In this document: positions 7,113 through 33,550 of the stretch, piece after piece
Numbering within the stretch: the first letter of the stretch is position 1
Layout of the letters: every line of letters starts with the position of its first letter
Origin: Thiobacillus thioparus DSM 505
GTDB taxonomy: Bacteria; Pseudomonadota; Gammaproteobacteria; Burkholderiales; Thiobacillaceae
NCBI RefSeq assembly: GCF_000373385.1
Contig: NZ_KB891317.1
Location: forward strand, 1 to 64,000
Reading direction: 5' to 3'
DNA length: 64,000 bases
Made by a program: the position numbers and the translations under genes
Notes under the pieces: generated by a model
What the model saw: only the letters and a program-made list of their open reading frames with translations
Database searches by the model: none
What the model was told of the DNA's origin: nothing

Positions 7113-8210
7113 ATGTCTGGCAGCACACTCGGCAAACTGTTCTGTGTCACCGTGTTCGGCGAATCGCACGGACCCGCGATCGGCTGCGTGGTCGACGGCT
7201 GTCCGCCCGGCATGGCGCTCGCCGAAGCCGACATCCAGCATGACCTCGACCGCCGCAAGCCGGGCACCTCGCGCCACGTCACTCAGCGGCGCGAATCCGA
7301 CACCGTGGAAATCCTATCCGGACTCTATGAAGGCAAGACGACAGGCACGCCGATCGCGCTGCTGATCCGCAACGAGGACCAGCGCAGCAAGGACTACGGC
7401 AACATCGCCGAAACCTTCCGCCCCGGCCATGCCGACTATACCTACACGCAGAAATACGGTTTCCGTGATCCGCGCGGCGGCGGCCGTTCGTCGGCCAGGC
7501 TGACCGCGCCCATCGTCGGCGCCGGCGCCATCGCAAAAAAATGGCTGGCTGAAAAATACGGCATCGTGATCCGCGGCTACATGAGCGCACTGGGCCCGAT
7601 CGACGTGCCATTCGAGTCGTGGGACGAGATCGGTAACAATGCCTTCTTCGCGCCCAATGCCGCCATCGTGCCCAAGCTCGAGGACTACATGGACGCGCTC
7701 AGGAAGTCGGGCGATTCGGTCGGCGCGAAGATCAGCGTGATGGCCGAGAACGTGCCGCCCGGCTGGGGCGAGCCGCTGTATGACAAGCTCGACGCCGACC
7801 TCGCCCACGCGCTGATGGGCCTCAACGCCGTCAAGGGCGTGGAAATCGGCGACGGCATGGAAGCTGCACGGCAGCTGGGCACCGAGCATCGCGACGAAAT
7901 CACACCCGATGGATTCCTTTCCAACCATGCCGGGGGCGTGCTCGGCGGCATTTCGAGCGGCCAGGCTGTCGTCGCCCACATCGCGATCAAGCCCACCTCG
8001 TCGATGCGCCTGCCGGGACGCTCGATCGACCTGCACGGTCAGCCGATCGAGGTCGTCACCCACGGCCGCCACGATCCCTGCGTCGGCATTCGCGCCACCC
8101 CGATCGCCGAGGCGCTGATGGCGATCGTGCTGATGGATCACGCGCTGCGCCATCGTGCGCAATGCGGCGACGTGGCGAGCGGCACGCCGGTGATTCCTGC
8201 CAACAACTAG
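7113..8210 (+). CDS. aroC: Chorismate synthase
   Basis: It makes chorismate from 5-enolpyruvylshikimate 3-phosphate, the last shared step of aromatic amino-acid and folate precursor synthesis, using reduced FMN. The 365-residue protein has the three family signatures: [18 protein letters not shown] near the N-terminus, a central GRSSARLTA region after the [10 protein letters not shown] loop, and a C-terminal region with [13 protein letters not shown]. The start [10 protein letters not shown] matches the family. No strong Shine-Dalgarno is visible in the short leader. Confidence 0.98.
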
Positions 8211-8325
8211 GACCCCACCTGGCCACGCCGTACACCGTGTATGGCCGGCCCAAACGGCGATTGGGGTTTGACGGATCGGCGGTGTACGCTAGGTTTAAAT
8301 TACTGTGCAACCGGTGCCTGACGCC

Positions 8326-21347: not shown

Positions 21348-22094
21348 GTGTCCGTCGTCAATATCTCCTGCTACAAATTCGTCACGCTCGCCGACCGCGA
21401 GGCCTTGAAGGCCGCTCTCACCGCGCGTTGTCTGGAGCTGGATCTCAAGGGCACCATTCTGCTGGCGCCGGAAGGCATCAACGTGTTCCTGGCCGGCTCG
21501 CGCCAGGCGATCGACGCCATCGTCGCCCATCTGCGCGCCGATCCGCGCTTCAGTGATCTCGCGCCCAAGGAAAGCCTGTCGGCCGAACCGCCGTTCAAGC
21601 GCATGCGGGTGCGGCTGAAGAAGGAAATCATCACCATGAAGCATCCGCTGATCCGCCCGGAAGCGGGGCGTGCGCCGTCGGTGCCGGCCGCGACGCTGAA
21701 GCAGTGGCTCGATCGCGGCTGCGACGACGAAGGCCGCCCGGTGGTGATGCTCGATACCCGCAACGACTACGAAGTCGCCGCCGGCACCTTCGAGAACGCC
21801 GTCGACTACGACATCGGCGTCTTCAGCGAATTTCCCTTGCGGCTGGCCGCCCATCTGCCCGACTATGCCGGCAAGACCGTGGTGTCGTTCTGCACTGGCG
21901 GCATCCGCTGCGAAAAGGCCGCCATCCACATGAAGGCGGTCGGCATCGAACGGGTCTACCAGCTCGAAGGCGGCATCCTCAAGTATTTCGAGGAAGCCGG
22001 CGGGGCGCATTATCGCGGCGACTGCTTCGTGTTCGACGAACGCGAGGCGGTGAGCGCGGACCTGCAGCCGGCGGCGGGACGCCTGCATCGCTGA
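21348..22094 (+). CDS. trhO: tRNA uridine(34) hydroxylase, rhodanese-like
   Basis: A 248-residue TrhO (YceA) protein, which hydroxylates wobble uridine in certain tRNAs, a step toward carboxymethoxyuridine or methoxyuridine. Order: an N-terminal ferredoxin-like domain, then a rhodanese domain with active Cys about C182 in [13 protein letters not shown]. The C-terminus is shorter than in E. coli, without the zinc-like Cys tail. Translation starts at GTG 21348, with AAAGGG about 7 nt upstream. Its last 37 codons are included in a perfect tandem duplication, but the first copy keeps the gene intact. Confidence 0.93.
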
Positions 22095-22230
22095 TTGCCC
22101 GCCCTCCCTGCGAATAAAAACAAGACAAAACAACTGCCTGTAAAAAAGCACCCGATTGGCATAGGGCTTGCCTGCTACCTGGGGCAGTGTTGATCGAACG
22201 GGTGTGCGGCGCGCACCCATGGCATCCAAA
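21981..22230 (+). repeat. 249-bp direct tandem repeat, copy 1
   Basis: The unit runs from inside the trhO 3' end (AAGTATTTCGAGG) to GCACCCATGGCATCCAAA. By eye it is identical base for base to the following copy at an offset of exactly 249 bp. The identity stops at both outer ends, and only one or two A residues are shared at the junction. Confidence 0.95.
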
Positions 22231-22479
22231 AGTATTTCGAGGAAGCCGGCGGGGCGCATTATCGCGGCGACTGCTTCGTGTTCGACGAACGCGAGGCGGT
22301 GAGCGCGGACCTGCAGCCGGCGGCGGGACGCCTGCATCGCTGATTGCCCGCCCTCCCTGCGAATAAAAACAAGACAAAACAACTGCCTGTAAAAAAGCAC
22401 CCGATTGGCATAGGGCTTGCCTGCTACCTGGGGCAGTGTTGATCGAACGGGTGTGCGGCGCGCACCCATGGCATCCAAA
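22230..22479 (+). repeat. 249-bp direct tandem repeat, copy 2
   Basis: Second copy, containing an untranslated duplicate of the trhO 3' end (to 22343) plus the intergenic tail. It has no start codon or ribosome-binding site for the trhO fragment. The sequence after 22479 is the original downstream flank, so this is a simple local duplication and not an insertion. Confidence 0.95.
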
Positions 22480-22512: not shown

Positions 22513-22646
22513 ATGGGCCATACGACGATGGAGCAGACAGGCAGGGACCATCCACCCAAGACGCTCCAGCGTGTTGCCAAAGTCCGCCGCGACTACAACA
22601 TCTGGGTCGCCAACGAGACCATGGAAGATTACGCCCCGCGCTTCTC
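22513..22646 (+). pseudogene. N-terminal fragment of a permease-like membrane protein
   Basis: An ATG frame reads MGHTTMEQTGRD, HPPKTLQRVAKVRRDYNIW and VANETMEDYAPRF and then loses sense. From memory this looks like the cytoplasmic N-terminus of cytosine/allantoin-permease-like membrane proteins (YN-W-ANET-EDYALRF), but I am not certain of the family. No membrane helix follows: the frame runs straight into the ureG remnant in another phase. It is therefore a truncated relic. Confidence 0.4.
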
Positions 22647-22647
22647 A

Positions 22648-22824
22648 CGATCTACGTCATCGACCTCGCGCCCAGGGTCGGCGCCTCGCTGGCGGTGATG
22701 GATCAGGACACGAAACGCATGCGCGGCGCGGGGCCGTTCGTTTTTTTCCAATCTCAAGACGGAACAGGGCCTAGCCGACATCATGGCCTTCATCGAACGG
22801 GAAGGCATGCTGCAGGCGGCCTGA
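22648..22824 (+). pseudogene. ureG: Urease accessory protein UreG remnant (C-terminal 60 codons, frameshifted)
   Basis: The frame reads IDLAPRVGASLAVMDQDTKR then MRGAGPFVF, the end of UreG (a GTPase that loads nickel into urease). A run of seven T at about 22741-22747 then shifts the frame; after removing one T the expected end NLKTEQGLADIMAF, IEREGMLQAA and stop follow. The N-terminal P-loop and nickel-site parts are absent. No other urease genes remain in the window. It ends 1 bp before the stop of the convergent cupin gene. Confidence 0.8.
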
Positions 22825-23169
22825 TTACTCTTGCCGCACGATATCGACCGAGATCTCCACCGCCGGAATCGTTCCTCGGTTCTCAAGCCAGTGCAGGGTG
22901 TTCCTGTCCTCGGGCCAGCCTACGCCCGGCCCATAGTCCGTCGCGACGCCATTCCGATGGTCCGTGATCGTTCCTTGCAGGATGTAGACGGTGCCTGGCC
23001 GGTCCTTATGGTCGTGAAGCGGGCCGAAGACGCCGCCAGGCTCGATGGTCACCATGCGCATTCGAAGTTGGCGCCCGGCCATGCCCTCGATCTCCGGACC
23101 CAGGTCAACCGTTGAAAGTAGCTTCACCGTCACCCCTTTCGTTTCGGGTGCCATCTGTTCATTGCTCAT
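22825..23169 (-). CDS. Cupin-domain protein
   Basis: A 114-residue single-domain cupin. The metal motif region is GPLHDHKDRPGTVYILQG, with two His and a downstream His in NTLHWLENRG, so a metal centre is plausible. The chemistry cannot be assigned: small cupins include dioxygenases, isomerases and sensors. GAGGAG precedes the ATG at 23169. It lies between the ureG relic and an integron-like hairpin, in AT-richer DNA than the housekeeping genes. Confidence 0.8.
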   Translation of the reverse strand: MSNEQMAPETKGVTVKLLSTVDLGPEIEGMAGRQLRMRMVTIEPGGVFGPLHDHKDRPGTVYILQGTITDHRNGVATDYGPGVGWPEDRNTLHWLENRGTIPAVEISVDIVRQE

Positions 23170-23522
23170 CGTGCACTCCTCTCTGTAATTTCAAGATCTA
23201 ATGGTTGGATGCCCTCACACGGCAGCGAGCCGTCGCGAGTACGCACGCTTATCGGGTCTGGGCCTGCCACATGTGCTTATCGGGAAGTCTACTGCCCGAG
23301 CTCTGATCTTTAACCGGTTTTTCCAGTACTTCATTTTTATATTAAGTGATAAAAAAATAGGACGGGACAAGAGGCAGGGTCGATTACTGATTGTGGTACT
23401 TGACGAGTGACGGACGGCTGGGCATGGGATCGTGAATGGACCGCTTTCGCCGTGTGTAGAGCCGCAGTCTTACATCGAATGAACATCCACTCCTGTTGAG
23501 GAATAGGGGGAGTTCATGTAGT
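23170..23522. other. Gene-poor stretch of the accessory segment
   Basis: About 350 bp with no convincing gene. A 69-codon open frame at 23201-23410 lacks a ribosome-binding site and family features. The sequence around 23325-23365 is very AT-rich. The right end runs into the attC-like hairpin. Confidence 0.5.
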
Positions 23523-23600
23523 GGAGTTAACCGGCGCTGCGCAGCTTTATCGCGTAGCATCCAGCGACCGAAGGGAGCGAGGTTGAGCTCATGTTAGGGC
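23523..23600 (-). repeat. Integron attC-like site (partly degenerate)
   Basis: Read on the minus strand it starts at the end of the DUF3224 gene as GCCCTAACATGAGCTCAACC, which matches the R''-L'' arm typical of chromosomal-integron attC sites (TAACATG-x-GCTCAA), and ends with GGTTAACTCC as the L' arm. Between the arms lie imperfect inverted repeats around CCTTCGG. The outer GTTRRRY core expected after the L' arm is missing, so the site is probably inactive. The stop codon overlapping R'' is the usual cassette arrangement. Confidence 0.45.
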
Positions 23601-24002
23601 ATTTGGCGCAAACGAATATGTCAATGAAACCTGTGCTGGCTCACCGTGACCGGCTACAAAGGAGCCTTTGCCGCAGAGACATGCAAGACCTTCTGTACCT
23701 GAGCCCGGAATGATAGACCACGAGCTGCGTGCCTTGCCTTCCGAAAAAGAACCAACATGCTGGATTACGAACGTGCCGGACTTCCCCTCAATCGTTGCGG
23801 AGACTCGCTCTAGCCCCACGAAGTTGGCTGTGCCGTGACCGGTATATGACATGAGGTATTCGGTGGTACTTGTTCCCTCGATTGCACCAGAGTAGGACTG
23901 CGTAACTTTTGCATTTGTGAGCTTTGCATTATCCCCAATTTCTTGGTAAGTCTTTTCATCCCAGCCAGTAATCTGGAAGATGCATTTACTTTCTATAGAC
24001 AT
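23589..24002 (-). CDS. DUF3224 domain protein, possible integron cassette gene
   Basis: A 137-residue cytosolic protein beginning MSIESKCIFQITGWDEKTYQ with TTEYLMSYTGHGTANFVGLE and GKSGTFVIQHVGSFSEGKA, the pattern of DUF3224 (beta-barrel, AOC-like proteins of unknown function). GGAG lies about 9 nt before the ATG at 24002. Codon use is clearly less GC-biased than in the housekeeping blocks. Its stop codon lies in an attC-like hairpin, so it may have arrived as a gene cassette. Confidence 0.75.
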   Translation of the reverse strand: MSIESKCIFQITGWDEKTYQEIGDNAKLTNAKVTQSYSGAIEGTSTTEYLMSYTGHGTANFVGLERVSATIEGKSGTFVIQHVGSFSEGKARSSWSIIPGSGTEGLACLCGKGSFVAGHGEPAQVSLTYSFAPNALT

Positions 24003-24314
24003 TGATATGACTCCATGGTGAAAGAGAAGATGGCTTGCCCCACGATCGTATCGTGGGGCAAGCTGCTCAACCCGTTCGCCAAATTGCCGCCCGCATTGTC
24101 TGAGCGATGCTGGTGCGAGGCGAGGTCCACCGAATTGCGCCGGCCAGACAGCTGGCCCACACACAGAATATGATCACCGTAATGCAGACCGAGCCGCCTG
24201 CCAGCCAATAGATGACGAAAGGTCAGACTGGTGAAATTAGGAGGGGTCCATGTACTAGAAATATGGACTCCTATTTAGAATTCTCTATGGCAATATAATC
24301 TGCCAATTATAAGA
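24003..24314. other. Intergenic stretch with several inverted repeats
   Basis: No intact gene is seen. The minus strand between about 24090 and 24220 encodes a hydrophobic segment (GGSVCITVIIFCVWASCLAG) lacking a start and ending in a stop, possibly a relic of a membrane protein. Inverted repeats are at 24033-24063, 24142-24157 and about 24246-24271 (GGTCCAT...ATGGAC), and a short one straddles 24296-24318 beside the end of the AhpD-like gene. Confidence 0.4.
24033..24063. repeat. Perfect 14-bp inverted repeat with 3-nt loop
   Basis: GCTTGCCCCACGAT, loop CGT, ATCGTGGGGCAAGC. It lies 31-61 bp upstream of the DUF3224 start, in its 5' leader. It has no T-tract on either side, so it is not a normal terminator. 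Confidence 0.85.
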
Positions 24315-24647
24315 TTACTCCCTGTCGTAAAGTTTCATTGTCATGCCGCCATGTGCAGCAGCGCCGCCAGCACGAATTGCCGCCGCGACAAATATCGCTT
24401 CGGCAACTTCTGCTCGGCTTGCACCAGCGCGTTTTGCCGCTGCGACATGCACGTCTATACAATAGACACACTGTGTAGTATGGGCGACTGCTAAAGCAAT
24501 AAGTTCACGATATTTCCTGGAGATTGCGCCATCTTCCTTGGCTACGATCTGGTCAAGTGCGAGCCATGCCTTAAATTCGTTGGGCGCAGCCTGGGAAAGA
24601 TCTTTGAGACGATTGAGGTCAGATGGGTCATGGTAAATGTTGCTCAT
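24315..24647 (-). CDS. AhpD-like carboxymuconolactone decarboxylase family protein
   Basis: A 110-residue all-helical protein. It has E48, C60, C63 and H67 in the exact spacing E-x11-C-x2-C-x3-H (RELIALAVAHTTQCVYCIDVH), the catalytic motif of the peroxidase-reducing adaptor AhpD. In mycobacteria AhpD passes electrons from lipoamide dehydrogenase and a lipoyl acyltransferase to AhpC; true decarboxylases lack the CxxC. AAGGAA precedes the ATG at 24647. It is divergent from the kinase-regulator pair and 3 kb from an operon encoding OsmC, Lpd and a lipoyl carrier, which fits a thiol-redox role. Protein partners are inferred. Confidence 0.88.
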   Translation of the reverse strand: MSNIYHDPSDLNRLKDLSQAAPNEFKAWLALDQIVAKEDGAISRKYRELIALAVAHTTQCVYCIDVHVAAAKRAGASRAEVAEAIFVAAAIRAGGAAAHGGMTMKLYDRE

Positions 24648-24719
24648 TCTGTTTTCCTTATAAGGGTAATCGGAATGAGAAGTTTATAGAGCACATGGGT
24701 TGCGCAATATCCGTTGAAA

Positions 24720-24725
24720 TACGTA
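24720..24725. promoter_or_regulatory. TACGTA palindrome, candidate operator
   Basis: It lies in the 216-bp divergent control region between the AhpD-like gene and the kinase gene, within AAATACGTAAT. A similar ATACGTAT occurs at 27426 upstream of osmC. A six-base palindrome can occur by chance, so the assignment to the FixJ-type regulator is only a suggestion. Confidence 0.25.
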
Positions 24726-24784
24726 ATCCATTTGACTCAGCGCTGCTGACGGGGCGGGTCAATACGCCAAACTGCTAAGTAAGT

Positions 24785-24806
24785 ATCCCTTTACGGATAT
24801 AGGGAT
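24785..24806. promoter_or_regulatory. Inverted repeat ATCCCT-N10-AGGGAT upstream of the kinase gene
   Basis: The arms are exact, and the spacer contains TTACGGATAT. It lies about 60-80 bp before the kinase start, where an activator or autoregulator site could be. Confidence 0.35.
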
Positions 24807-24863
24807 GTTCCTAGTAGAAAATCTACGCTGGAGCGTATATATGTGAATCCTTGAGTCTTAAGG

Positions 24864-26126
24864 TTGCGCGCCAGATTGAAAATGACGGGTACTACTTTAC
24901 TTGTAGCGTTAGTAACACCCTATGCTATTGGGAGTGTTATACATCTGCTCAGATCAAGAAGCGAACTTAAGAATGAGATAGCCCATAGAATCAATCTGGA
25001 GAAACAGCTACTAGAGAAGCAGTGTTTTCTGCATACGATAATTCAAACTGAGCCGGAATGTGTGAAGCTGCTATCACGCAACGGTACAGTCCTTGAAATC
25101 AATCCGGCTGGCGCGGCTCTAATGGATGCCGATACACCAGAGCAGTTGTTGGGAACGTGTATTTTCCAGGTGGTGGTCGAGGAGAACAAGGCGCAATACA
25201 TTGACCTGACTCAGCGCGTGTTTCAAGGTGAGTCAGGCTCGCTTGAATTTCAGATAGAAAGCTTGAAAGGCCAGAAGAGGTGGCTGGAAACTCACGCAGT
25301 TCCAATGCGTGACAGCGCAGGACAAATTATCGCTTTGCTTGGAATTACCCGCGATATTACAACACGTAAACAAGCCGAAGATGATGTGAGGCGGCATCAG
25401 GGAGAGCTCGCGCGAGTTTGCCGTATGGTGACTGTCAATGAGATGGCTACTACGCTGGCTCATGAATTGAATCAGCCTTTGTGTGCCATCTCGAATTATA
25501 TGGAATCCATACAAATTCTGGCTAAGAGACGTGGACGCACTTCACTTTTGAAATTGGATGAGATAGCAGGCAAGGCTGGTAAGCAGGCGGTGCGGGCTGG
25601 ACTCATCATACGGAAGATCAGGGAGTTTGCCTCTACGAGTGAACCAAGTATGTTGGTATGTGACGTAAATTCGCTGATCGAAAATGTAATAAACATAAGT
25701 ATTGCCGAGGCCCGCGAACGTGGGATTAGCGTATCGCTAGCGCTTGGAGAAGGTCTACCAAAAATTATGGCTGATCCGATTCAAATACAACAGGTGGTGC
25801 TAAATATTGTGCGTAACGGAATAGAGGCAATTGAAACGGTATGTCCTGTTGTATTTGGCAAGGTGTCGATAAGCACTAGTTTGAAAGGAGAAGGGAAGGT
25901 CGAGGTTATGGTAGTTGACAATGGATGTGGCTTGGTTGATCTAGCCAGGGATAAAGTCTTCACTTCTTTCTATACGACCAAGCCCAAAGGAATGGGGATG
26001 GGTCTGTCCATTAGTCGAACCATTGCAATTGCGCATGGTGGCAGCCTATTCCTAGAAGAAAATCCGGACCGTCGGGGTTGTACAGCTAGATTATTGCTGC
26101 CCGTTATCGAAGAGGAACTGTTATGA
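24864..26126 (+). CDS. PAS-domain sensor histidine kinase (FixL/TodS-like)
   Basis: A kinase of up to 420 residues: a short N-terminal hydrophobic segment (about 9-28), one PAS domain (about 53-170) ending in the PAC motif GITRDITTRKQAEDD, H-box with H200 in TLAHELNQPLCAISN, and an HATPase with N-box NIVRNGIEAI, DNGCG and GMGMGLSISRTIA. No haem-binding His is evident in the PAS, so oxygen sensing is not shown. The start is unclear: TTG at 24864 or ATG at 24882. It overlaps the regulator by ATGA. The sequence is much less GC-rich than the core genome. Confidence 0.88.
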   Translation: MRARLKMTGTTLLVALVTPYAIGSVIHLLRSRSELKNEIAHRINLEKQLLEKQCFLHTIIQTEPECVKLLSRNGTVLEINPAGAALMDADTPEQLLGTCIFQVVVEENKAQYIDLTQRVFQGESGSLEFQIESLKGQKRWLETHAVPMRDSAGQIIALLGITRDITTRKQAEDDVRRHQGELARVCRMVTVNEMATTLAHELNQPLCAISNYMESIQILAKRRGRTSLLKLDEIAGKAGKQAVRAGLIIRKIREFASTSEPSMLVCDVNSLIENVINISIAEARERGISVSLALGEGLPKIMADPIQIQQVVLNIVRNGIEAIETVCPVVFGKVSISTSLKGEGKVEVMVVDNGCGLVDLARDKVFTSFYTTKPKGMGMGLSISRTIAIAHGGSLFLEENPDRRGCTARLLLPVIEEELL

Positions 26127-26776
26127 ACCCGACCGTATATATAGTGGATGATGATGACGCCATGAGAGACAGTTTATGCACACTGCTCGATTTGGCAGGT
26201 ATGGAGGCAAAAGCGTACGAATCGGCTCTCGATTTTCTGTCTCATTATGATACGGATATGCGACACCATGGATGTCTCGTGCTGGATATTCGTATGTGGG
26301 GTATGAGCGGATTAGAGCTTCAGAAATTGTTGGGAATACGCGGCTGTACGCTACCGGTAATTATTATTACGGGGCATGGCGATGTGCAGACGACTGTCAA
26401 GTCGATGAAACTCGGAGCAATGGAGTTCATCGAGAAGCCATTTACGCAGGATCGCTTGCTGGAATGCGTGCGAGCAGCAATCAGGCTGAGTGAGGAACGC
26501 TACGACATGAATATCCAGAAAGAGGAAATCCAGAATCGGATTGCACGGTTGTCTCCACGCGAACTGGAAGTGGCAGAAATACTGATAACCGGTCTTAGCA
26601 ATAAAGAAATTGCACGCCAGATGAATATCAGTTCTCGTACCGTTGAAGTGTACAGGGCGAAGGTTATGTTCAAGCTGCAGGCGGATTCTCTCTGCCAATT
26701 GGTCAGAATGTTTCTGCTCGCCGAGGGTCGGCTATTGACAGCCGAGACCCAGACGGGGCAACCGCATGCGTGTTAG
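26123..26776 (+). CDS. FixJ/NarL-family response regulator
   Basis: A 217-residue regulator: a receiver domain with phospho-acceptor D55 (CLVLDIRMWG), acidic pocket DDDD at 9-12 and K105 (FIEKPF), then a LuxR-type HTH (LSPRELEVAEILITGLSNKE, then IARQMNISSRTVEVYRAKV). The FIEKPF and PRELEV features place it with FixJ-type activators. The ATGA overlap with the kinase shows they form a pair. It runs tail-to-tail into the AmiS/UreI gene with 4 bp shared. Likely targets are the flanking divergent promoters. Confidence 0.92.
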   Translation: MNPTVYIVDDDDAMRDSLCTLLDLAGMEAKAYESALDFLSHYDTDMRHHGCLVLDIRMWGMSGLELQKLLGIRGCTLPVIIITGHGDVQTTVKSMKLGAMEFIEKPFTQDRLLECVRAAIRLSEERYDMNIQKEEIQNRIARLSPRELEVAEILITGLSNKEIARQMNISSRTVEVYRAKVMFKLQADSLCQLVRMFLLAEGRLLTAETQTGQPHAC

Positions 26777-27282
26777 GTAAGCTTGATGAAAGGCCAATAA
26801 CCATACAACATTGACCAACCCGTGAATCCGGCGGCGAAGCCGACCAGATAAACCATGGGAACCAGCACCTTCATGACATTGCCACCTGCGAAAAGCAATT
26901 TGTAGAACAGGTACCACGTGAGGCCATATGCGAGCCACTCGATCGTGAAAACAATATCGCCCGACTGATAGGTTTTAAAGGCAAACGGCAAGGTGAGGAT
27001 GGCCACGAAGAGGCAATAGAAACCGAGTGCTTTCTGGTCTGTTGCCCCGCGTAGGGCGTTGATCCCAACCCAGACATAGGTCATTCCAAACAAAATGAAG
27101 GCAGCCGAAAGATGGGCGTTCCCTTCGACCAAACCGAGATAACCAGAATAGAAGACGGTGATGATGCCTACTATCAGGTTGAAAACGCCCACATCTTTTG
27201 TCTCAACTTTCCCCTGTAGCCAAGCAGCATTGGTCAACAACAGCATTCCGATCATTAGCATAACAACTCCGATAAAAGCCAT
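26773..27282 (-). CDS. AmiS/UreI family channel (urea/amide)
   Basis: A 169-residue protein with six or more hydrophobic helices, starting MAFIGVVMLMIGMLLLTNAA. It contains the family pattern with VGVFNLIVGIITVFYSGYLG and a C-terminal AGFTGWSMLYGYWP. The family holds the proton-gated urea channel UreI and the amide-linked AmiS; the substrate cannot be told apart here. AAGGAG precedes the ATG at 27282. No amidase or urease is adjacent, only the ureG relic 4 kb away. It is divergent from the osmC operon, sharing a 354-bp control region. Confidence 0.85.
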   Translation of the reverse strand: MAFIGVVMLMIGMLLLTNAAWLQGKVETKDVGVFNLIVGIITVFYSGYLGLVEGNAHLSAAFILFGMTYVWVGINALRGATDQKALGFYCLFVAILTLPFAFKTYQSGDIVFTIEWLAYGLTWYLFYKLLFAGGNVMKVLVPMVYLVGFAAGFTGWSMLYGYWPFIKLT

Positions 27283-27425
27283 ACTTTTCTCCTTAACGAG
27301 TATTTGTTTCAATCAATCACGGGAACTCTCCCGAGCTGTTTCCTTGCATTCCGACAGAATCTTTGTGATTGTCAGTTTGCAGTGAACAAAGTATTTCCTC
27401 GCAGCTTATGTGGCTATTCGCATCA

Positions 27426-27433
27426 ATACGTAT
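27426..27433. promoter_or_regulatory. ATACGTAT palindrome, candidate operator
   Basis: An exact 8-bp palindrome about 145 bp from the AmiS/UreI start and 200 bp from osmC. It shares its TACGTA core with the site at 24720. Confidence 0.3.
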
Positions 27434-27497
27434 GTGATTTGGCTATAAAAATACGGAATTCCTTTCAGCTGTGAAATATTCAACCTTTGCGAGAAAG

Positions 27498-27515
27498 ATA
27501 GGTATTCATACCTAT
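27498..27515. promoter_or_regulatory. Inverted repeat ATAGGTA-TTCA-TACCTAT upstream of osmC
   Basis: A perfect 7-bp inverted repeat with a 4-bp spacer, 122 bp before the osmC start. The 11-bp centre-to-centre half-site spacing suits a dimeric HTH regulator such as the adjacent LuxR-type protein. Confidence 0.4.
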
Positions 27516-27636
27516 GCATTCAAGCGGATTTTCCAGTTGAGGTGATGTGCTTACGATCTTCATAGCCTTGACTACTCGGGCTGGGGTGGTTGGGGAATAA
27601 CCGTTCAGTACATGGCAAATATTTTAGGAGATACAT

Positions 27637-28179
27637 ATGTCACAAGAAGCGATTAAAGCGGCTGTAGGTAAGTTGGCCGCGGCAGTTCAGGAGAACCCTT
27701 CCAATGGCAAGTTAATTTACCGTGGAACCACCGAATGGAAAGGGGATGTGCTGTGCCATAACCAAGTTGGTAGGCATTCCCTAATGGTGGACGAACCTGC
27801 TGCTTTTGGGGGAGGGGACTCGGCCATGAGCCCGGCGGATTTGATTCTGGCGGCATTGGGAAGTTGCCAGGAAATCATGTACTCGGCTCTGGCTTCGTCC
27901 ATGGATATCCCGTTGGAATCAGTCAAGATTGAACTAAAAGGAAATTTAGATCTGCGCGGGCTGATGGGGATGGGCGAAGGCGAGGTGCCTCCCGGTTTCA
28001 CGGATCTATCTTTCGAGACGCATCTGCGTAGCAGCGCAGACGAAGCCACACTCAAGAAGCTGATTGATGCAGTTGAGGCGCAATGCCCGATCCTGGACAC
28101 GCTGGTCCGCCCGATTCGCGTTTCTGGCAAGGCAATCATAAATGGTGGGACAGAGTACGTAGCGCAGGCTGCGGGCTGA
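27637..28179 (+). CDS. OsmC family peroxidase-like protein
   Basis: A 180-residue OsmC-fold protein with both redox cysteines of the Ohr/OsmC family: C77 in AALGSCQEIMY and C150 in EAQCPILDTL. Such proteins reduce organic hydroperoxides, and Ohr is known to be recycled by lipoylated proteins and lipoamide dehydrogenase. The N-terminal extension and GMGEG loop differ from classical Ohr, closer to YhfA-type OsmC proteins. It is the first gene of an operon with an outer-membrane protein, Lpd and a lipoyl carrier. GGAGA precedes the ATG at 27637. Confidence 0.88.
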   Translation: MSQEAIKAAVGKLAAAVQENPSNGKLIYRGTTEWKGDVLCHNQVGRHSLMVDEPAAFGGGDSAMSPADLILAALGSCQEIMYSALASSMDIPLESVKIELKGNLDLRGLMGMGEGEVPPGFTDLSFETHLRSSADEATLKKLIDAVEAQCPILDTLVRPIRVSGKAIINGGTEYVAQAAG

Positions 28180-28228
28180 TTTGCGCTTATTGAGGTCGTT
28201 AAGTGTTTAAATTTTTAGGATTGAACCG

Positions 28229-29134
28229 ATGAAAAATAGATCAAACATCAAGGTATCCGCGTTGCTTTCGGCCCTCCTGACGGCCGGCCTGTGCATTACA
28301 GCAAGTTATGCGCCAAGTGCATCTGCGATTGATTTCAACCCGGGAGACTGGGTTGCTGCACCTCCGGGAACAAGCCTCTTCCTGGGATATTACCAATTCA
28401 CAAGTTTTAAGGACTTCTATGTGAATGGCTCCAAGATTCCTGGAGACAATAAACTAGATGCGAATATTGGAATTGTTCGCCCTGTGCACTATTTCAAGCT
28501 CGGAGACTATACGGCGCTTAGCCAGGCAATTCTGCCGTTCGGGAAGCTTGAAGGTAAGGGTGACATGAGCGGCCTGGGCGACGCTACGGGTATTAGCGAC
28601 CTTATCCTGTCCAATGCGATTTGGCTGAAAACGGGCGACACTCGGCATACCAACTTTGGCTTCGCGCACTATATCTGGGTTCCCACGGGCAGCTATGATA
28701 AAAATGAAGCGCTCAACCTAGGCGAGAATCGCTGGAAGTGGACCTTGGCAACCGGCTTGGCCCAGGGTCTGACGGACAAGCTGAGTATTGATCTTGCTGC
28801 CGATGTGACATTGTTCGGCAACAATAATCAGTACGGCCCTGCAAGTAAAACCTTGTCGGAGAAGCCGTATTACACGGCTCAGACATCGCTTCGCTATGAC
28901 GTCACGCCAAGTACGAATGTGTTCGTTGGATACGCCTACGAACGGGGGGGGGAGCAAAGCATTGATGGCGTAAGCCAGGATAATGAACAAAAGAAATCCA
29001 GATTTTATGTGGGAGGCTCTTCCTGGGTTATGCCTTCCGTACAAATTCAAGCTTACTACGGTCAGGACATTAACGTAGAAAATGGGTTCAAAGAAGAGAA
29101 TCGCTTCCATCTCAGGTTGTTGAAAGCATTCTGA
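28229..29134 (+). CDS. Outer-membrane transport-like protein (phenol MetA/SphA-type family)
   Basis: A 301-residue protein with a signal peptide (to about ASA, residue 33) and a beta-barrel pattern of alternating polar and hydrophobic strands ending in Phe (RLLKAF), the outer-membrane sorting signal. The pattern with DFNPGDWVAAPPGTSLFLGYY and later LSIDLAADVTLFGNN matches the meta-pathway-of-phenol-degradation outer-membrane family. It may admit a hydrophobic substrate. It sits between osmC and lpd, 49 and 21 bp away, so it belongs to that operon. Confidence 0.8.
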   Translation: MKNRSNIKVSALLSALLTAGLCITASYAPSASAIDFNPGDWVAAPPGTSLFLGYYQFTSFKDFYVNGSKIPGDNKLDANIGIVRPVHYFKLGDYTALSQAILPFGKLEGKGDMSGLGDATGISDLILSNAIWLKTGDTRHTNFGFAHYIWVPTGSYDKNEALNLGENRWKWTLATGLAQGLTDKLSIDLAADVTLFGNNNQYGPASKTLSEKPYYTAQTSLRYDVTPSTNVFVGYAYERGGEQSIDGVSQDNEQKKSRFYVGGSSWVMPSVQIQAYYGQDINVENGFKEENRFHLRLLKAF

Positions 29135-29155
29135 AAAACGGCGGGGAAGAGGTTA

Positions 29156-30568
29156 ATGTCCAAACACATTGTAATTATCGGCGGCGGGCCTGCAGGGTAT
29201 GTTGCTGCGTCTCATGCCGCTGCTGAAGGGGCAAGGGTCACTCTAATTGATCCCCATTCGCTTGGTGGAACATGTTTGCATAGGGGATGCATTCCGACAA
29301 AGACGCTCGTGGAAAGCTGCAGCCTATTGTACAAGATGCGTCATGCCGATTCGTATGGGTTGCAGCTGACGGGAGAAGTGAAGGCGAACTGGACGGCAAT
29401 GCAGGAACGGGCTAGCTATGTCATTGGCCTGCTGAACCGTGGCATAAACGGGCTCATGGCAGACCGTAAAGTGGAGCATGTTCAGGGAGTTGGCCGCGTC
29501 ATTGACGGCAGAAGCGTTGAAGTGGATGGGCATGGCGTTGTTAAAGGCGATGCCGTGCTCATATGCACGGGATCCGTTCCCATGATGCCGGTAAGTTGCA
29601 TGGCCAGCAAAGATCGCGTGGCAACCAGCGATGACCTGCTTAAGTGGAAGAGCTTGCCAAGTACTTTAACCATCATCGGTGATGGCGTAGTTGCTTGTGA
29701 GTTCGCATTTATCATGAATGAGCTTGGCGTCAAGGTGACGATCGTCGCGATGAGTGAGCGCCCTATGCAATTCATTGACAAGGACATTTCTCTAATCGTT
29801 CTGCGCGAAATGCGCAGAAGAGGCATTACGTTCATCGACAATTGCAAAGTCGATGGACTGGTGTGCGACCAATCGAGCGTGAATGTCTTGTCTAATGGAG
29901 TGCTGGTTGACAGTGCGGAGCGTGCTCTCGTTGCGATTGGTCGTGCGCCAAATACAAGTGGTCTTGGGTTGGAAAAGGCTGGCGTGGCAACGGGGGCACG
30001 TGGAGAAATCGTCGTCGATGAAATGATGCGCACCAATTTGGATGGCCTGTATGCCGCTGGCGATGTGAATGGTCGTTTGGCACTGGCGCACGCGGCGTCT
30101 GCCCAGGCCCGATTGGCTGTGGGTCATATGCTTGGCCGTGATCCGGCGCCTTTAGACGACACGACCATCCCATGGGCCGTATTCACTATGCCGGAAATAG
30201 GCAGTGTCGGCCTAAGCGAAGAGAAAGCTGTGGAGTTTGGTCATATCGTGAGTGTTGGAAAATTCGACATGCGTGGGTTGGGTAAGGCTCAAGCAATGAA
30301 TGAATTGTCCGGGATGGTAAAAGTCGTTATCGATCGCGCCACTGGCCGCTTGTTGGGGGCGCATGTGATTGGTGCGCATGCTTCGGATATGGTGCATGAA
30401 GCTGCAGTACTTATTCAACAAGGCGCTACAGTCCACGAAATCGTACATACCGTACATGCTCATCCAACGTTGTCCGAAGCAATGCTCGAAGCCGCTGAGG
30501 ATGCATTGGGCCAAGCTGTGCATAAACCCTTGAAACATAAGGCCTCACATGAACATGCATTACCCTGA
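29156..30568 (+). CDS. lpd: Dihydrolipoamide dehydrogenase
   Basis: A 470-residue FAD/NAD flavoprotein that reoxidises dihydrolipoyl groups or, in reverse, reduces them with NADH. It has the N-terminal FAD motif GGGPAGY, the redox disulfide C40/C45 in GGTCLHRGCIPTKT, the central NAD motif (IIGDGVVACEFA) and the C-terminal dimer-interface His-Glu in HAHPTLSEAMLE. It is not next to any 2-oxoacid dehydrogenase genes; instead it overlaps by 20 bp a GcvH-like lipoyl carrier and follows an OsmC gene. Its AT-richer codon use matches the surrounding segment. Confidence 0.95.
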   Translation: MSKHIVIIGGGPAGYVAASHAAAEGARVTLIDPHSLGGTCLHRGCIPTKTLVESCSLLYKMRHADSYGLQLTGEVKANWTAMQERASYVIGLLNRGINGLMADRKVEHVQGVGRVIDGRSVEVDGHGVVKGDAVLICTGSVPMMPVSCMASKDRVATSDDLLKWKSLPSTLTIIGDGVVACEFAFIMNELGVKVTIVAMSERPMQFIDKDISLIVLREMRRRGITFIDNCKVDGLVCDQSSVNVLSNGVLVDSAERALVAIGRAPNTSGLGLEKAGVATGARGEIVVDEMMRTNLDGLYAAGDVNGRLALAHAASAQARLAVGHMLGRDPAPLDDTTIPWAVFTMPEIGSVGLSEEKAVEFGHIVSVGKFDMRGLGKAQAMNELSGMVKVVIDRATGRLLGAHVIGAHASDMVHEAAVLIQQGATVHEIVHTVHAHPTLSEAMLEAAEDALGQAVHKPLKHKASHEHALP

Positions 30569-30944
30569 AACGGTCCTATATCATCAAGAAGCCCTTTGGG
30601 TTAGGGTGCTGGGAAACGGAGAAGCAGTGGTTGGCGTAACCCATTTTGCCCAAAACAATTTAGGAGAGGTTATTTACCTTGATCTGCCTAAGGTCGGATC
30701 TTCTATTTTCAGGGGAAAATCATTCGGATCGATTGAATCACAGAAGGCCATGTCAGACTTGATTGCACCTATCAGCGGAAGTGTGGTTGAAGTCAATGCT
30801 GATTTGCGTGGAGATCCGGGGTTAGTGAATAAAGAACCATATGAGGCAGGATGGCTCCTACACATAAGACTAAATAATGCTGACGAGATAAATCAGCTCA
30901 TGAACGCAGAAAGCTATATCAAATACTTAGGGCCGAGTGAGTAA
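30549..30944 (+). CDS. GcvH-like lipoyl-carrier protein
   Basis: A 131-residue lipoyl-domain protein of the glycine-cleavage H family. The lipoylation lysine is K66 in SIESQKAMSDLIAP, and the flanking GEVIYLDLPKVGS and PISGSVVEVNADLRGDPGLVN are typical. No gcvT or gcvP is present. Its start lies 20 bp inside lpd, so the two are made together and Lpd probably acts on it. Possible jobs are electron carrier for OsmC/AhpD proteins, H protein of a remote glycine system, or a carrier like LbpA of the sHdr sulfur-oxidation pathway; no hdr genes are seen. Confidence 0.9.
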   Translation: MNMHYPETVLYHQEALWVRVLGNGEAVVGVTHFAQNNLGEVIYLDLPKVGSSIFRGKSFGSIESQKAMSDLIAPISGSVVEVNADLRGDPGLVNKEPYEAGWLLHIRLNNADEINQLMNAESYIKYLGPSE

Positions 30945-31048
30945 TTACATGGGATGTGATTACTGAACTATCGGAAAGCCATTCGATGAACAAGCACCCA
31001 ACAGTCTTTTCTGGATCAGTATCCTTCATTCCCTAAAATCCCCAACCA

Positions 31049-33550
31049 TCAATTCAGCGCCCGGATCGACTGCATCGGCGGCACGCGCGTGATGTGCCGC
31101 GTGGTGAGCCAGCCGCTCATCCCGACCAGCAGGGCGCCGGCCACCGGCAGCGCGAGCCATAGCCACGGATGCAGGCGCAGCGGCAGTTCGAACAGGCGCT
31201 GGGCGATCAGCGCCATGGCGATTTCGGCGCAGGCGCTGGCGAGCAGGCCGGCCAGCAGGCCCAGGGCGAGGAATTCGCTCCACAGGCTTTTGGCCAGGTA
31301 GACGCGCTGGGCGCCCAGGGTGCGCAGCAGGACGGCTTCCTGCTGGCGGGCGTCGAGGCTGGCCAGCAGCGTGGCGATGACGACGGCCATGCCGGCAGCG
31401 AGCAGGAATCCCAGCAGCAACTGGATGGCGCCGATGATCTGGGCGAACACCGCTTCGAGGTTGGCGATGAGCCGGTCCAGCGCGAGCACGGTGATGCCGG
31501 GGAACATCTTGATGAAGCTGGGCAACACGCCGGCCGCATCGGGTGGCACGTAGAGGCTGGCGATGGAACTGGCGGGCAGGGCGTCGAGCTGGCCGGGGGC
31601 GAAGATGACGAAGAAGTTCGGCTGCATCGAGTCCCATTTCACGCTGCGGATGCTGGTGATGCGGGCGGCGAGCGTCTGGTCGCCGACCTGGAAACCGAGC
31701 TGGTCGCCGAGGGCCAGATGCAGGCGTTCGGCCATGCCCGATTCGACCGAGATTTCGGCGACGCGGCGGTCGCCGTGCCAGTGTCCGGCGAGTATGGCGT
31801 TGTTGGCGGGCAGGATGGCGGTCCAGGTCAGGTTGAGTTCGCGCCGCAGGCTGTTGGCGTCGCGCGCGTCCGGCGGCAGGGTGGATGCGATGGGGGCGCC
31901 GTTCCTGGTGGTAAGGCGGCCGCGGACCATGGGATAGAGCGCGGAGGCCTTGAGATGGTGCTGCGACAGGTAGGCGGCAACGGATTGCTGCTGGGCGGGG
32001 GCGATGTTGATCAGGAAGTAGTTGGGCGCGTCCGGCGGCAATTGCTGGCGCCAGCCGGCAATGAGATCGCTGCGTACCAGCGCCAGCAGCGCCACGAGAA
32101 ACAGGGCCAGGGTGAAGGCGCCGAGCTGCAGGGTGCTGTCGAAACGGTGGCGCAGCAACTGGGCGAGTCCGAAACGTACCGGGCCGTGGCTCATTTTCTG
32201 GACACCGCGGCCGGCTGCCAGCGCCAGGCGAGCCAACAGGGCCAGCACGACGACCAGCCCGGCCAGCGCGCCGACGAACACGCCGATCAGCCTGGCGTTG
32301 CCCGCATACCAGGTGATCAGAAGCAGCAAAGCAGAGCCGCTGATCGCCGCGCTGAGCCACGCGGCGACCGGCAACGGCGGCAGATCGCGCCGCAGCACCC
32401 GCAGCGGCGGCACGCGGACGAGGCGCATCAACGCGGGCAGGCTGGCGCCAGCCAATGCCAGCAGGCCGCTGAAGACGGCAGCGCCCACGGGCGCCAGCCC
32501 GAGCGACGGCAGGCGGGTGACGGCATCGGGCAGGACCAGCAGCGCCAGCGCCTGCTGCATCAGCGCGCCGATCGCCACACCGATCAGGCTGCCCAACAGT
32601 CCCAGCGTCAGCAATTGGACGGCATACAGCGTACGCAGCTGTGCCGTGGTGGCGCCGAAGCAGCGCAGCAGTGCGGCCTGATCGTAATGCCGCAGCGCAT
32701 GGCGATGGGCGGCGATGGCGATGGCGGCCACCGACAGCAGCAGGCTGATCAGCGCGGTGAGCTGGATGTAGCGGTCGGCATTGGCGAAGGCGCCCCGCAG
32801 GGTTTCGACGCCTTCGCGCGAACCGATGAGGCGCTGGGTGCTGTCGAGCCGGGGTTTCAGCGCGGCGCCGAACGCGGCGAGTTGCGCCGGGTCGCCGGCA
32901 ACCTGGTACAGGTAGGTCACGCGGCTGCCGGGCTGCAGCACGCGGGTTTTCGCGACTTCTTCGGCGCGCATGAACACGCGCGGCGCGAGGCCGAACACGC
33001 CGCCGAGCTGGCCCGGTTCCTCGGCCACGATTCCGGCGATGGTGAAGCGGGCTTCGCCGATCTGCACGCGGTCGCCCACTTTGGCCGACAACAGCGGCAG
33101 CAGGTCGGGGGCGACATAGATCATGCCGGGGGGCGGCTGCGCGGGACGTGCGGTGCCGGCCGCGAAGGGGCGGTCGGCGATGCGCACGCTGCCGCGCAAG
33201 GGGTAGGACGCATCGACGGCCCGCAGGGTGGCGAGCTGGAAGGCGTCGCCCTTGGCGAGCATGCTGGGAAACTCGAGCGCCTGGCTGCGTGCAAGCGGGC
33301 TGGCTGGGCGTGCGCTTTTTGTAACGGCGAGGGCGGGCCAGTCTTCGATCGGCCGCGGGCTGGTGACCAGCAGGTCGGCGCCGAGGAAGCTGGCGCCCTG
33401 TTCGCTCATGGCACGCTTCAGGCGGTCGCCGAGAAAACCGGTGGTGCTGACGCTGCCGACGCCGATGATCAGCGCCAGCAGCAGCACACGCCATTCGCCG
33501 CTCGCGCGTTCGCGCCGCAGCAGCCAGAGGCCGAGCCGGGCGAAGCTCAT
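31049..33550 (-). CDS. ABC transporter permease, FtsX-like (YbbP type)
   Basis: An 833-residue inner-membrane protein with an N-terminal helix, a large periplasmic domain, paired FtsX-like permease blocks and a C-terminal block ending THHITRVPPMQSIRALN-like (HITRVPPMQSIRALN). Length and layout match YbbP, partner of YbbA. It may extract or move lipophilic molecules; the transported substrate is unknown. The ATG at 33550 overlaps the ATPase gene by ATGA. GC content and codon use return to the core level here, marking the right edge of the accessory segment. Confidence 0.88.
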   Translation of the reverse strand: MSFARLGLWLLRRERASGEWRVLLLALIIGVGSVSTTGFLGDRLKRAMSEQGASFLGADLLVTSPRPIEDWPALAVTKSARPASPLARSQALEFPSMLAKGDAFQLATLRAVDASYPLRGSVRIADRPFAAGTARPAQPPPGMIYVAPDLLPLLSAKVGDRVQIGEARFTIAGIVAEEPGQLGGVFGLAPRVFMRAEEVAKTRVLQPGSRVTYLYQVAGDPAQLAAFGAALKPRLDSTQRLIGSREGVETLRGAFANADRYIQLTALISLLLSVAAIAIAAHRHALRHYDQAALLRCFGATTAQLRTLYAVQLLTLGLLGSLIGVAIGALMQQALALLVLPDAVTRLPSLGLAPVGAAVFSGLLALAGASLPALMRLVRVPPLRVLRRDLPPLPVAAWLSAAISGSALLLLITWYAGNARLIGVFVGALAGLVVVLALLARLALAAGRGVQKMSHGPVRFGLAQLLRHRFDSTLQLGAFTLALFLVALLALVRSDLIAGWRQQLPPDAPNYFLINIAPAQQQSVAAYLSQHHLKASALYPMVRGRLTTRNGAPIASTLPPDARDANSLRRELNLTWTAILPANNAILAGHWHGDRRVAEISVESGMAERLHLALGDQLGFQVGDQTLAARITSIRSVKWDSMQPNFFVIFAPGQLDALPASSIASLYVPPDAAGVLPSFIKMFPGITVLALDRLIANLEAVFAQIIGAIQLLLGFLLAAGMAVVIATLLASLDARQQEAVLLRTLGAQRVYLAKSLWSEFLALGLLAGLLASACAEIAMALIAQRLFELPLRLHPWLWLALPVAGALLVGMSGWLTTRHITRVPPMQSIRALN

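Follow-up and report, generated by a model that had tools for sequence, protein, structure and literature searches.

A lipoyl-linked OsmC operon on accessory DNA of Thiobacillus thioparus: a candidate redox relay in one-carbon sulfur catabolism

What does an OsmC-family thiol redox protein do when it is encoded together with its own lipoyl carrier and the enzyme that would reduce that carrier? The question is raised by an island in Thiobacillus thioparus DSM 505 (assembly GCF_000373385.1; 3.2 Mb in 18 contigs), within the first 64,000 nucleotides of contig NZ_KB891317.1: the stretch analysed here, referred to below as the window. An earlier reading of the window (the original prediction) proposed that OsmC, an AhpD-like protein, dihydrolipoamide dehydrogenase (Lpd) and a GcvH-like lipoyl carrier form a self-contained, transferable system directed at peroxides. 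Our analysis keeps the relay and questions the peroxide. We hold it a little better than an even bet that a cytoplasmic NADH–Lpd–lipoyl–OsmC relay acts on an oxidant of one-carbon (C1) sulfur metabolism, and that the island carries an acquired, diverged second version of it.

An operon joining OsmC to a lipoyl carrier and its reductase

Four genes form a single co-directional operon, with gaps of 49, 21 and −20 bp. The gene for the AhpD-like protein stands outside it, 3 kb away on the opposite strand, beyond a FixL/FixJ-like regulatory pair and an AmiS/UreI gene. Protein families were assigned with Pfam and NCBIfam profiles; genes are open reading frames, no gene finder having been used.

27637–28179, plus strand: OsmC-family thiol redox protein (PF02566), with C40, C77 and C150
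28229–29134, plus strand: outer-membrane protein of the Phenol_MetA_deg family (PF13557), N-terminus signal-peptide-like by eye
29156–30568, plus strand: dihydrolipoamide dehydrogenase, Lpd (TIGR01350, 469.6 bits against a cut-off of 408.8), redox disulfide C40-x4-C45
30549–30944, plus strand: GcvH-like lipoyl carrier (PF01597; TIGR00527, 136.6 bits against a cut-off of 115.85), lipoyl lysine K66
24315–24647, minus strand: AhpD/CMD-like protein (PF02627), with E48, C60, C63 and H67

Profiles and motifs confirm all four proteins of the original prediction together with the residues named for them: E48-x11-C60-x2-C63-x3-H67 in the AhpD-like protein, C77 and C150 in OsmC, the Lpd, and K66 in the carrier. 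To these we add C40, a third conserved cysteine of OsmC that the prediction did not mention. Among 78 aligned sequences C77 is kept in 77, C150 in 76 and C40 in 74; position 68, a putative counterpart of the catalytic Glu of Ohr as placed by sequence alignment, holds D in the window protein and E in 71 of the 78. The AlphaFold model (predicted local distance difference test score 91.3) has the OsmC/Ohr fold, and by fold, by PF02566 and by both redox cysteines the protein belongs to the Ohr/OsmC family.

The carrier is a GcvH by family and by its lipoyl lysine, but not by linkage to gcvT or gcvP, nor by grouping with the GcvH of glycine cleavage. Neither gcvT nor gcvP was found near the island among the open reading frames of the window or in the Pfam scan, and the genome's glycine-cleavage pair, gcvT–gcvH, lies apart on contig C16. 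The ordinary lipoylation pathway is represented by LipA and LipB on contig C15. Since lipoate must come from these host enzymes, 'self-contained' is too strong a term.

Two known peroxidase systems invite comparison. In Mycobacterium tuberculosis AhpC, AhpD, DlaT and Lpd act together as a peroxidase. The island likewise has an AhpD-like protein with the E-x11-C-x2-C-x3-H motif, a lipoyl carrier and Lpd, but neither AhpC nor a lipoyl acyltransferase is among its proteins, and OsmC is likely to be the terminal enzyme. Known Ohr proteins, for their part, are thought to borrow the lipoyl domains of 2-oxoacid dehydrogenase complexes. With lipoyl-dependent peroxidases of this family, such as the Ohr of Xylella and Chromobacterium, the island OsmC shares the fold, the two redox cysteines and, we infer, reduction by a lipoylated protein and Lpd (reduction of Ohr by lipoylated proteins is described in PMC5962072). 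It differs in having carrier and Lpd encoded beside it and in its third conserved cysteine; any peroxidase activity of its own is only putative.

Related loci and methanethiol oxidase

Is this arrangement found elsewhere? Five aligned OsmC proteins, used to search named genomes, yielded 74 loci, selected by OsmC sequence alone, whose neighbours were scored with profiles made from those same loci. Many of the loci end within 10 kb, so that counts of presence are lower bounds. The genera include Thiobacillus, Sulfuritalea, Sedimenticola, Thiohalocapsa, Methylophaga, Methylobacillus, Methylophilus, Filomicrobium and Nitrospira; one locus from a record titled Rhizobium sp. (L077) groups with Thiobacillus, and that title seems to be mistaken.

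Within 1.5 kb of OsmC a lipoyl carrier is encoded in 30 of the 74 loci (a GcvH-like protein in 15, a lipoyl–Lpd fusion in 15) and Lpd in 23. Removal of the three query genomes leaves a carrier in 27 of 71; removal of seven Thiobacillus-like loci leaves 23 of 67. As a control we took loci with other OsmC types (45, four of them fetched twice, hence 41 distinct; flanks of up to 1.5 kb, in some cases shortened by the end of a contig): 0 of 41 had GcvH, Lpd, a lipoyl domain, methanethiol oxidase or FadL within that distance. The difference in carrier linkage has a Fisher P of 1.2e-7 (2.9e-6 without the Thiobacillus-like loci), values that overstate independence because the loci are related. The original proposal that OsmC has a lipoyl carrier and Lpd of its own is supported by the recurrence of the pairing (carrier in 30/74 loci against 0/41 controls), and the comparison lends support to a private NADH–Lpd–carrier–OsmC chain.

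Over the wider distance of 9.4 kb, a carrier is present in 35 of 74 loci, Lpd in 29, methanethiol oxidase in 24 and a FadL-type outer-membrane protein in 15; carrier and methanethiol oxidase occur together in 17. Without the seven Thiobacillus-like loci the corresponding counts, out of 67, are 28, 23, 21, 15 and 14. The FadL-type neighbours agree with the earlier suggestion of a hydrophobic substrate. In 30 of the 74 loci a kinase and a regulator are encoded no more than 6 kb from OsmC, rhodanese matches occur in 12, and some loci linked to the methanethiol oxidase gene, mtoX, also carry MauG and SCO1 genes; the AmiS/UreI gene is rarely near OsmC outside the window and locus L063. In two Nitrospirota loci (L083 and L089) the three-cysteine OsmC has just upstream a gene that by eye resembles a GAF-type sensor, and similar frames cluster in 16 loci.

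Two builds of the carrier exist. One is a GcvH-like protein; the other, a lipoyl domain at the N-terminus of Lpd, occurs in Rhodocyclales, Methylophaga thiooxydans and others. PF00364 is above its cut-off in all 17 fusions; TIGR01350 was applied to the Lpd part of two of them and was above its cut-off in both. The lipoyl-lysine motif is kept in 17/17 fusions and in 23/24 OsmC-linked GcvH proteins (GcvH shorter than 110 amino acids were left out of trees and of this count; 'OsmC-linked' means anywhere in the examined locus, and three of the 24 go with a small OsmC and not the main one). None of the 17 loci with a fusion gave a GcvH match of its own. The Pfam GcvH model does weakly match many of the fusion lipoyl domains, which indicates that both builds go back to one ancient fold; the proteins are distinct without being unrelated.

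How often was the association formed? On a tree of 79 OsmC proteins, with a carrier scored within 3.5 kb, the presence of any carrier requires 12 changes (at least seven on well-supported branches), that of GcvH eight (at least four) and that of the fusion four (at least four), gains and losses not being separable in these counts. A single origin without change is thereby ruled out. In the GcvH tree one branch (support 100/99) separates the 24 OsmC-linked proteins from 26 others, which include the gcvT-linked GcvH of this genome. For both trees the software issued a long-branch warning.

A second set is present in the genome itself, on contig C11: an OsmC 51% identical to that of the window, Lpd, a GcvH 50% identical, and then, after 30 bp, a rhodanese. 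Window operon and C11 set share the same 20-bp overlap of lpd and gcvH. Farther along C11, mostly on the opposite strand, lie genes for a flavoprotein with weak similarity to sulfide:quinone reductase, the formaldehyde-activating enzyme Fae (PF08714), SCO1 (PF02630), a MauG-like protein (closest to the MbnH and MauG models, though below the cut-off of each) and an SBP56/mtoX protein above the Pfam cut-off, its gene about 8 kb from that of OsmC. After its signal region the N-terminus of this protein resembles the sequenced N-terminus of the methanethiol oxidase of Hyphomicrobium. Beyond it follow a Rieske oxygenase and a pair with domains of NAD-linked formate dehydrogenase, so named by eye. 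Upstream of the C11 set, behind an ATP-binding cassette transporter with two permeases, a small OsmC (135 amino acids) stands with another GcvH-like protein (7396–8222 of locus L024), a pairing seen also in genomes G001 and G005.

The link to SBP56 extends across the genus. Among 25 genomes searched, the present one included, this OsmC type occurs in four (G000, which is the genome of the window, G005, G013 and G016) and SBP56 in five (the same four and G015); the co-presence has P = 0.0004 with relatedness ignored. In all four genomes the two genes share a contig, about 8, 8, 14 and 9 kb apart. The C11 set and the 24 related loci resemble the mto clusters of Methylophaga, Hyphomicrobium and Thiobacillus; the island differs, being without mtoX and without the MauG and SCO1 genes that lie near the C11 set. 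It is the frequent nearness of related sets to methanethiol oxidase (24/74 loci, and the C11 set) that makes the peroxide label doubtful.

Two loci hold close relatives of island proteins. The window OsmC is sister to an OsmC of L063 (Rhodocyclaceae), 78% identical, with support of 98/99 and 100/98 in two OsmC trees. L063 also encodes a similar kinase (59%), regulator (62%) and AmiS (78–80%), the AmiS copy standing beside the OsmC, as well as mtoX and genes read as S-formylglutathione hydrolase and sulfide:quinone reductase. Matches to the window GcvH, outer-membrane protein and AhpD-like gene were not found there, and the Lpd match, to the fusion, is only 30%. The AhpD-like protein, in turn, is 86% identical to a copy in L094, which lies in a run of OsmC, GcvH, rhodanese, AhpD-like, Fae, MauG-like, SCO1, mtoX and formate-dehydrogenase-type genes (named for their resemblance to the C11 genes).

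The island and its place in the genome

From about 23.2 to 30.95 kb of the window the GC content is 48–51%, against about 63% around it, and two genomes of the same genus, G005 and G001, have 5.0 and 7.1 kb of different DNA between flanks that match those of the window. The segment was called accessory in the original prediction, and low GC content and variable occupancy both agree. Apart from the operon and the AhpD-like gene it comprises:

22645–31054, no strand: variable slot, from flank matches in G005 and G001 (the left match of G001 ends at 22343)
23589–24164, minus strand: DUF3224 protein (PF11528), in the low-GC part of the slot
24864–26126, plus strand: PAS sensor histidine kinase, FixL-like (profile match)
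26123–26776, plus strand: FixJ-like response regulator (profile match)
26773–27312, minus strand: AmiS/UreI-type channel protein (PF02293)

The DUF3224 protein is probably not part of the redox system. Near the 5′ part of its frame the two arms of an inverted repeat, each of 14 bases and perfectly matched, enclose a loop of 3 bases (24033–24063), a possible operator or terminator. Just outside the island, at 21972–22469, a tandem duplication of 249 bases (99% identical), either genuine or an effect of assembly, overlaps the end of a gene with a rhodanese domain, as judged by eye.

Islands for resistance to allicin and other thiosulfinates, in Pseudomonas and Pantoea, are similar in joining osmC and ahpD-type genes on accessory DNA in a setting of sulfur redox stress. 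Their gene set, as listed in PMC7119367, is osmC, sdr, tetR, dsbA, trx, ahpD, oye and kefFC. The island shares osmC and an ahpD-type gene only, with no dsbA, trx, oye, sdr, tetR or kef product among its proteins. Two other loci, on Priestia plasmids (L021 and L022), resemble such clusters with a GcvH added: in a single stretch they hold GcvH, a CMD protein with two AhpD motifs, DsbA, thioredoxin, OsmC and an NADH:flavin oxidoreductase.

What the OsmC protein may reduce

The relay that we favour would run as follows. NADH would reduce Lpd, and Lpd the lipoyl arm presumed to be attached to K66 of the carrier; the dihydrolipoyl group would then re-reduce the C77/C150 disulfide of OsmC, a step suggested by gene linkage and by the known chemistry of Ohr. 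Less certainly, OsmC would act on a small sulfur oxidant encountered as volatile C1-sulfur compounds are broken down. This may be an organic disulfide, for instance dimethyl disulfide, or else persulfide or sulfane sulfur that remains after methanethiol has been oxidised. A hydrophobic or small neutral substrate may enter by way of the outer-membrane protein and the AmiS/UreI-type channel, and the FixL/FixJ-like pair may switch the genes on. The island set would be an acquired, diverged second version of the one that lies about 8 kb from the genome's methanethiol oxidase gene.

On the evidence of sequence, then, we prefer reduction of a disulfide, persulfide or sulfane sulfur in C1-sulfur catabolism as the role of OsmC, with peroxide as a live rival. 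In that rival the relay is the same, and OsmC, perhaps with the AhpD-like protein, is a lipoyl-dependent peroxidase acting on organic hydroperoxides or H2O2, including peroxide from methanethiol oxidation; we regard it as unlikely, yet to be taken seriously. Methanethiol oxidase was long thought to yield formaldehyde, H2S and H2O2 (PMC5739008), but for three such enzymes the reported product is sulfane sulfur, without H2O2 (PMC10936201). Around OsmC in this family, moreover, lie genes of C1-sulfur catabolism. Elsewhere, too, OsmC proteins respond to the supply of organosulfur. In R. erythropolis an OsmC encoded near sulfide:quinone reductase and rhodanese genes rises 7.1-fold on an organic disulfide (PMC5157978), and in Pelagibacter an OsmC mRNA behind an S-adenosylmethionine riboswitch rises 50-fold in sulfur limitation (PMC5069961). 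Both papers interpret the rise as a peroxide or stress response, and the OsmC type may differ from that of the window. In M. thiooxydans grown on dimethyl sulfide, transcripts of a dihydrolipoamide dehydrogenase and a FadL-like porin (MDMS009_809, MDMS009_906) are among those highly raised (PMC6548844); that of the pyruvate dehydrogenase acetyltransferase is raised too, which would fit the other Lpd. In this species two Lpds score above cut-off with TIGR01350, and the fusion linked to OsmC is one of the two. Lipoyl–Lpd and FadL-type genes follow closely behind OsmC in locus L096 and are candidates for the two transcripts.

Electrons might also flow the other way: sulfane sulfur from rhodanese or OsmC would be loaded on the lipoyl arm, and Lpd would re-oxidise the arm to give NADH, a route already suggested for LbpA of the sHdr system. 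The rhodanese directly after the C11 GcvH and those of the 12 loci speak for such an oxidative relay, as does the fact that LbpA, a GcvH homologue, is essential for sulfur oxidation in Hyphomicrobium (PMC6067878). In both systems, each from sulfur bacteria, a GcvH-like lipoyl carrier serves apart from glycine cleavage. The sHdr–LbpA system has a dedicated sLpl(AB)/LipS1/LipS2 lipoylation route, and the enzymes found in the present genome are LipA and LipB. However, the island's carrier has OsmC as partner and Lpd in the operon, and Hdr-like genes were seen neither in the island and its flanks nor, by eye, around the C11 cluster, the whole genome not having been searched for them. The window island is also without a rhodanese, and lipoyl–Lpd fusions beside OsmC suit a reductase equally well; we judge this reading improbable. 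Still more improbable, in our view, is that there is no common pathway, and that an acquired stress island brings these genes together by accident or to meet thiol stress in general. Such a reading would account for a slot that varies between genomes and for the scarcity elsewhere of the AhpD-like gene, of the outer-membrane family and of AmiS, but the OsmC–Lpd–GcvH core does recur across several lineages, and the 20-bp lpd/gcvH overlap is common to the window and C11 sets.

Several observations, besides the relatedness of the surveyed loci, weigh against the reductive C1-sulfur relay. The island has no mtoX. In the locus DNA examined, no lipoyl carrier was seen in 39 of the 74 loci; those of Nitrospirota and Nitrospinota have this OsmC without carrier, Lpd or mtoX, and several gammaproteobacterial ones have it without a carrier. 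Even the 78% identical OsmC of L063 has no adjoining carrier, the fusion lying 5.7 kb off beside a second OsmC. One of the 24 OsmC-linked GcvH proteins lacks the lysine. The outer-membrane family of the window is near OsmC in 0 of the 74 loci, by a profile made from a single sequence. At OsmC position 45, a putative counterpart by sequence alignment of the catalytic Arg of Ohr, Arg is found in 72 of 78 sequences and Gly in the window and L063 (position 46 being Arg in the former and Glu in the latter), a departure that counts against the peroxidase as well. Lastly, the AhpD-like gene, a core part in the original prediction, has solid matches in only three of the 74 loci (L094, L105 and L121) and weak ones in two more; the 86% identical copy inside the OsmC–GcvH–rhodanese–mtoX cluster of L094 keeps the idea alive. 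Of the four families expected to occur together, it is OsmC, Lpd and GcvH that recur.

A more specific proposal can be made tentatively, and we would not wager on it at even odds: that the three-cysteine OsmC, its private carrier and Lpd together use NADH to reduce low-molecular-weight disulfides, persulfides or methylthio adducts, a reaction that would be a missing step of dimethyl disulfide and methanethiol catabolism. This would be a new lipoate-dependent pathway, assembled more than once (with a GcvH-like protein or as a lipoyl–Lpd fusion) and carried on accessory DNA. Its parts are of known kinds; their arrangement and the tie to methanethiol oxidation appear to be new. In the open-access literature, to which our searches were confined, we found no paper naming both 'methanethiol oxidase' and 'OsmC', and, for OsmC or lipoyl together with methanethiol, no such system in the titles or abstract openings among the matches listed.

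Lipoate is known from few enzyme systems, and an NADH–Lpd–lipoyl–OsmC relay near methanethiol oxidase would, if true, be one more. OsmC proteins induced by organosulfur supply, so far put down to a response to peroxide or stress, would gain a function that can be tested, and there would be a gene candidate for the NADH-dependent disulfide reduction of dimethyl disulfide users, an activity reportedly known from work on Thiobacillus thioparus itself. The operon may thus help bacteria to handle smelly one-carbon sulfur compounds, and not just to detoxify peroxides.

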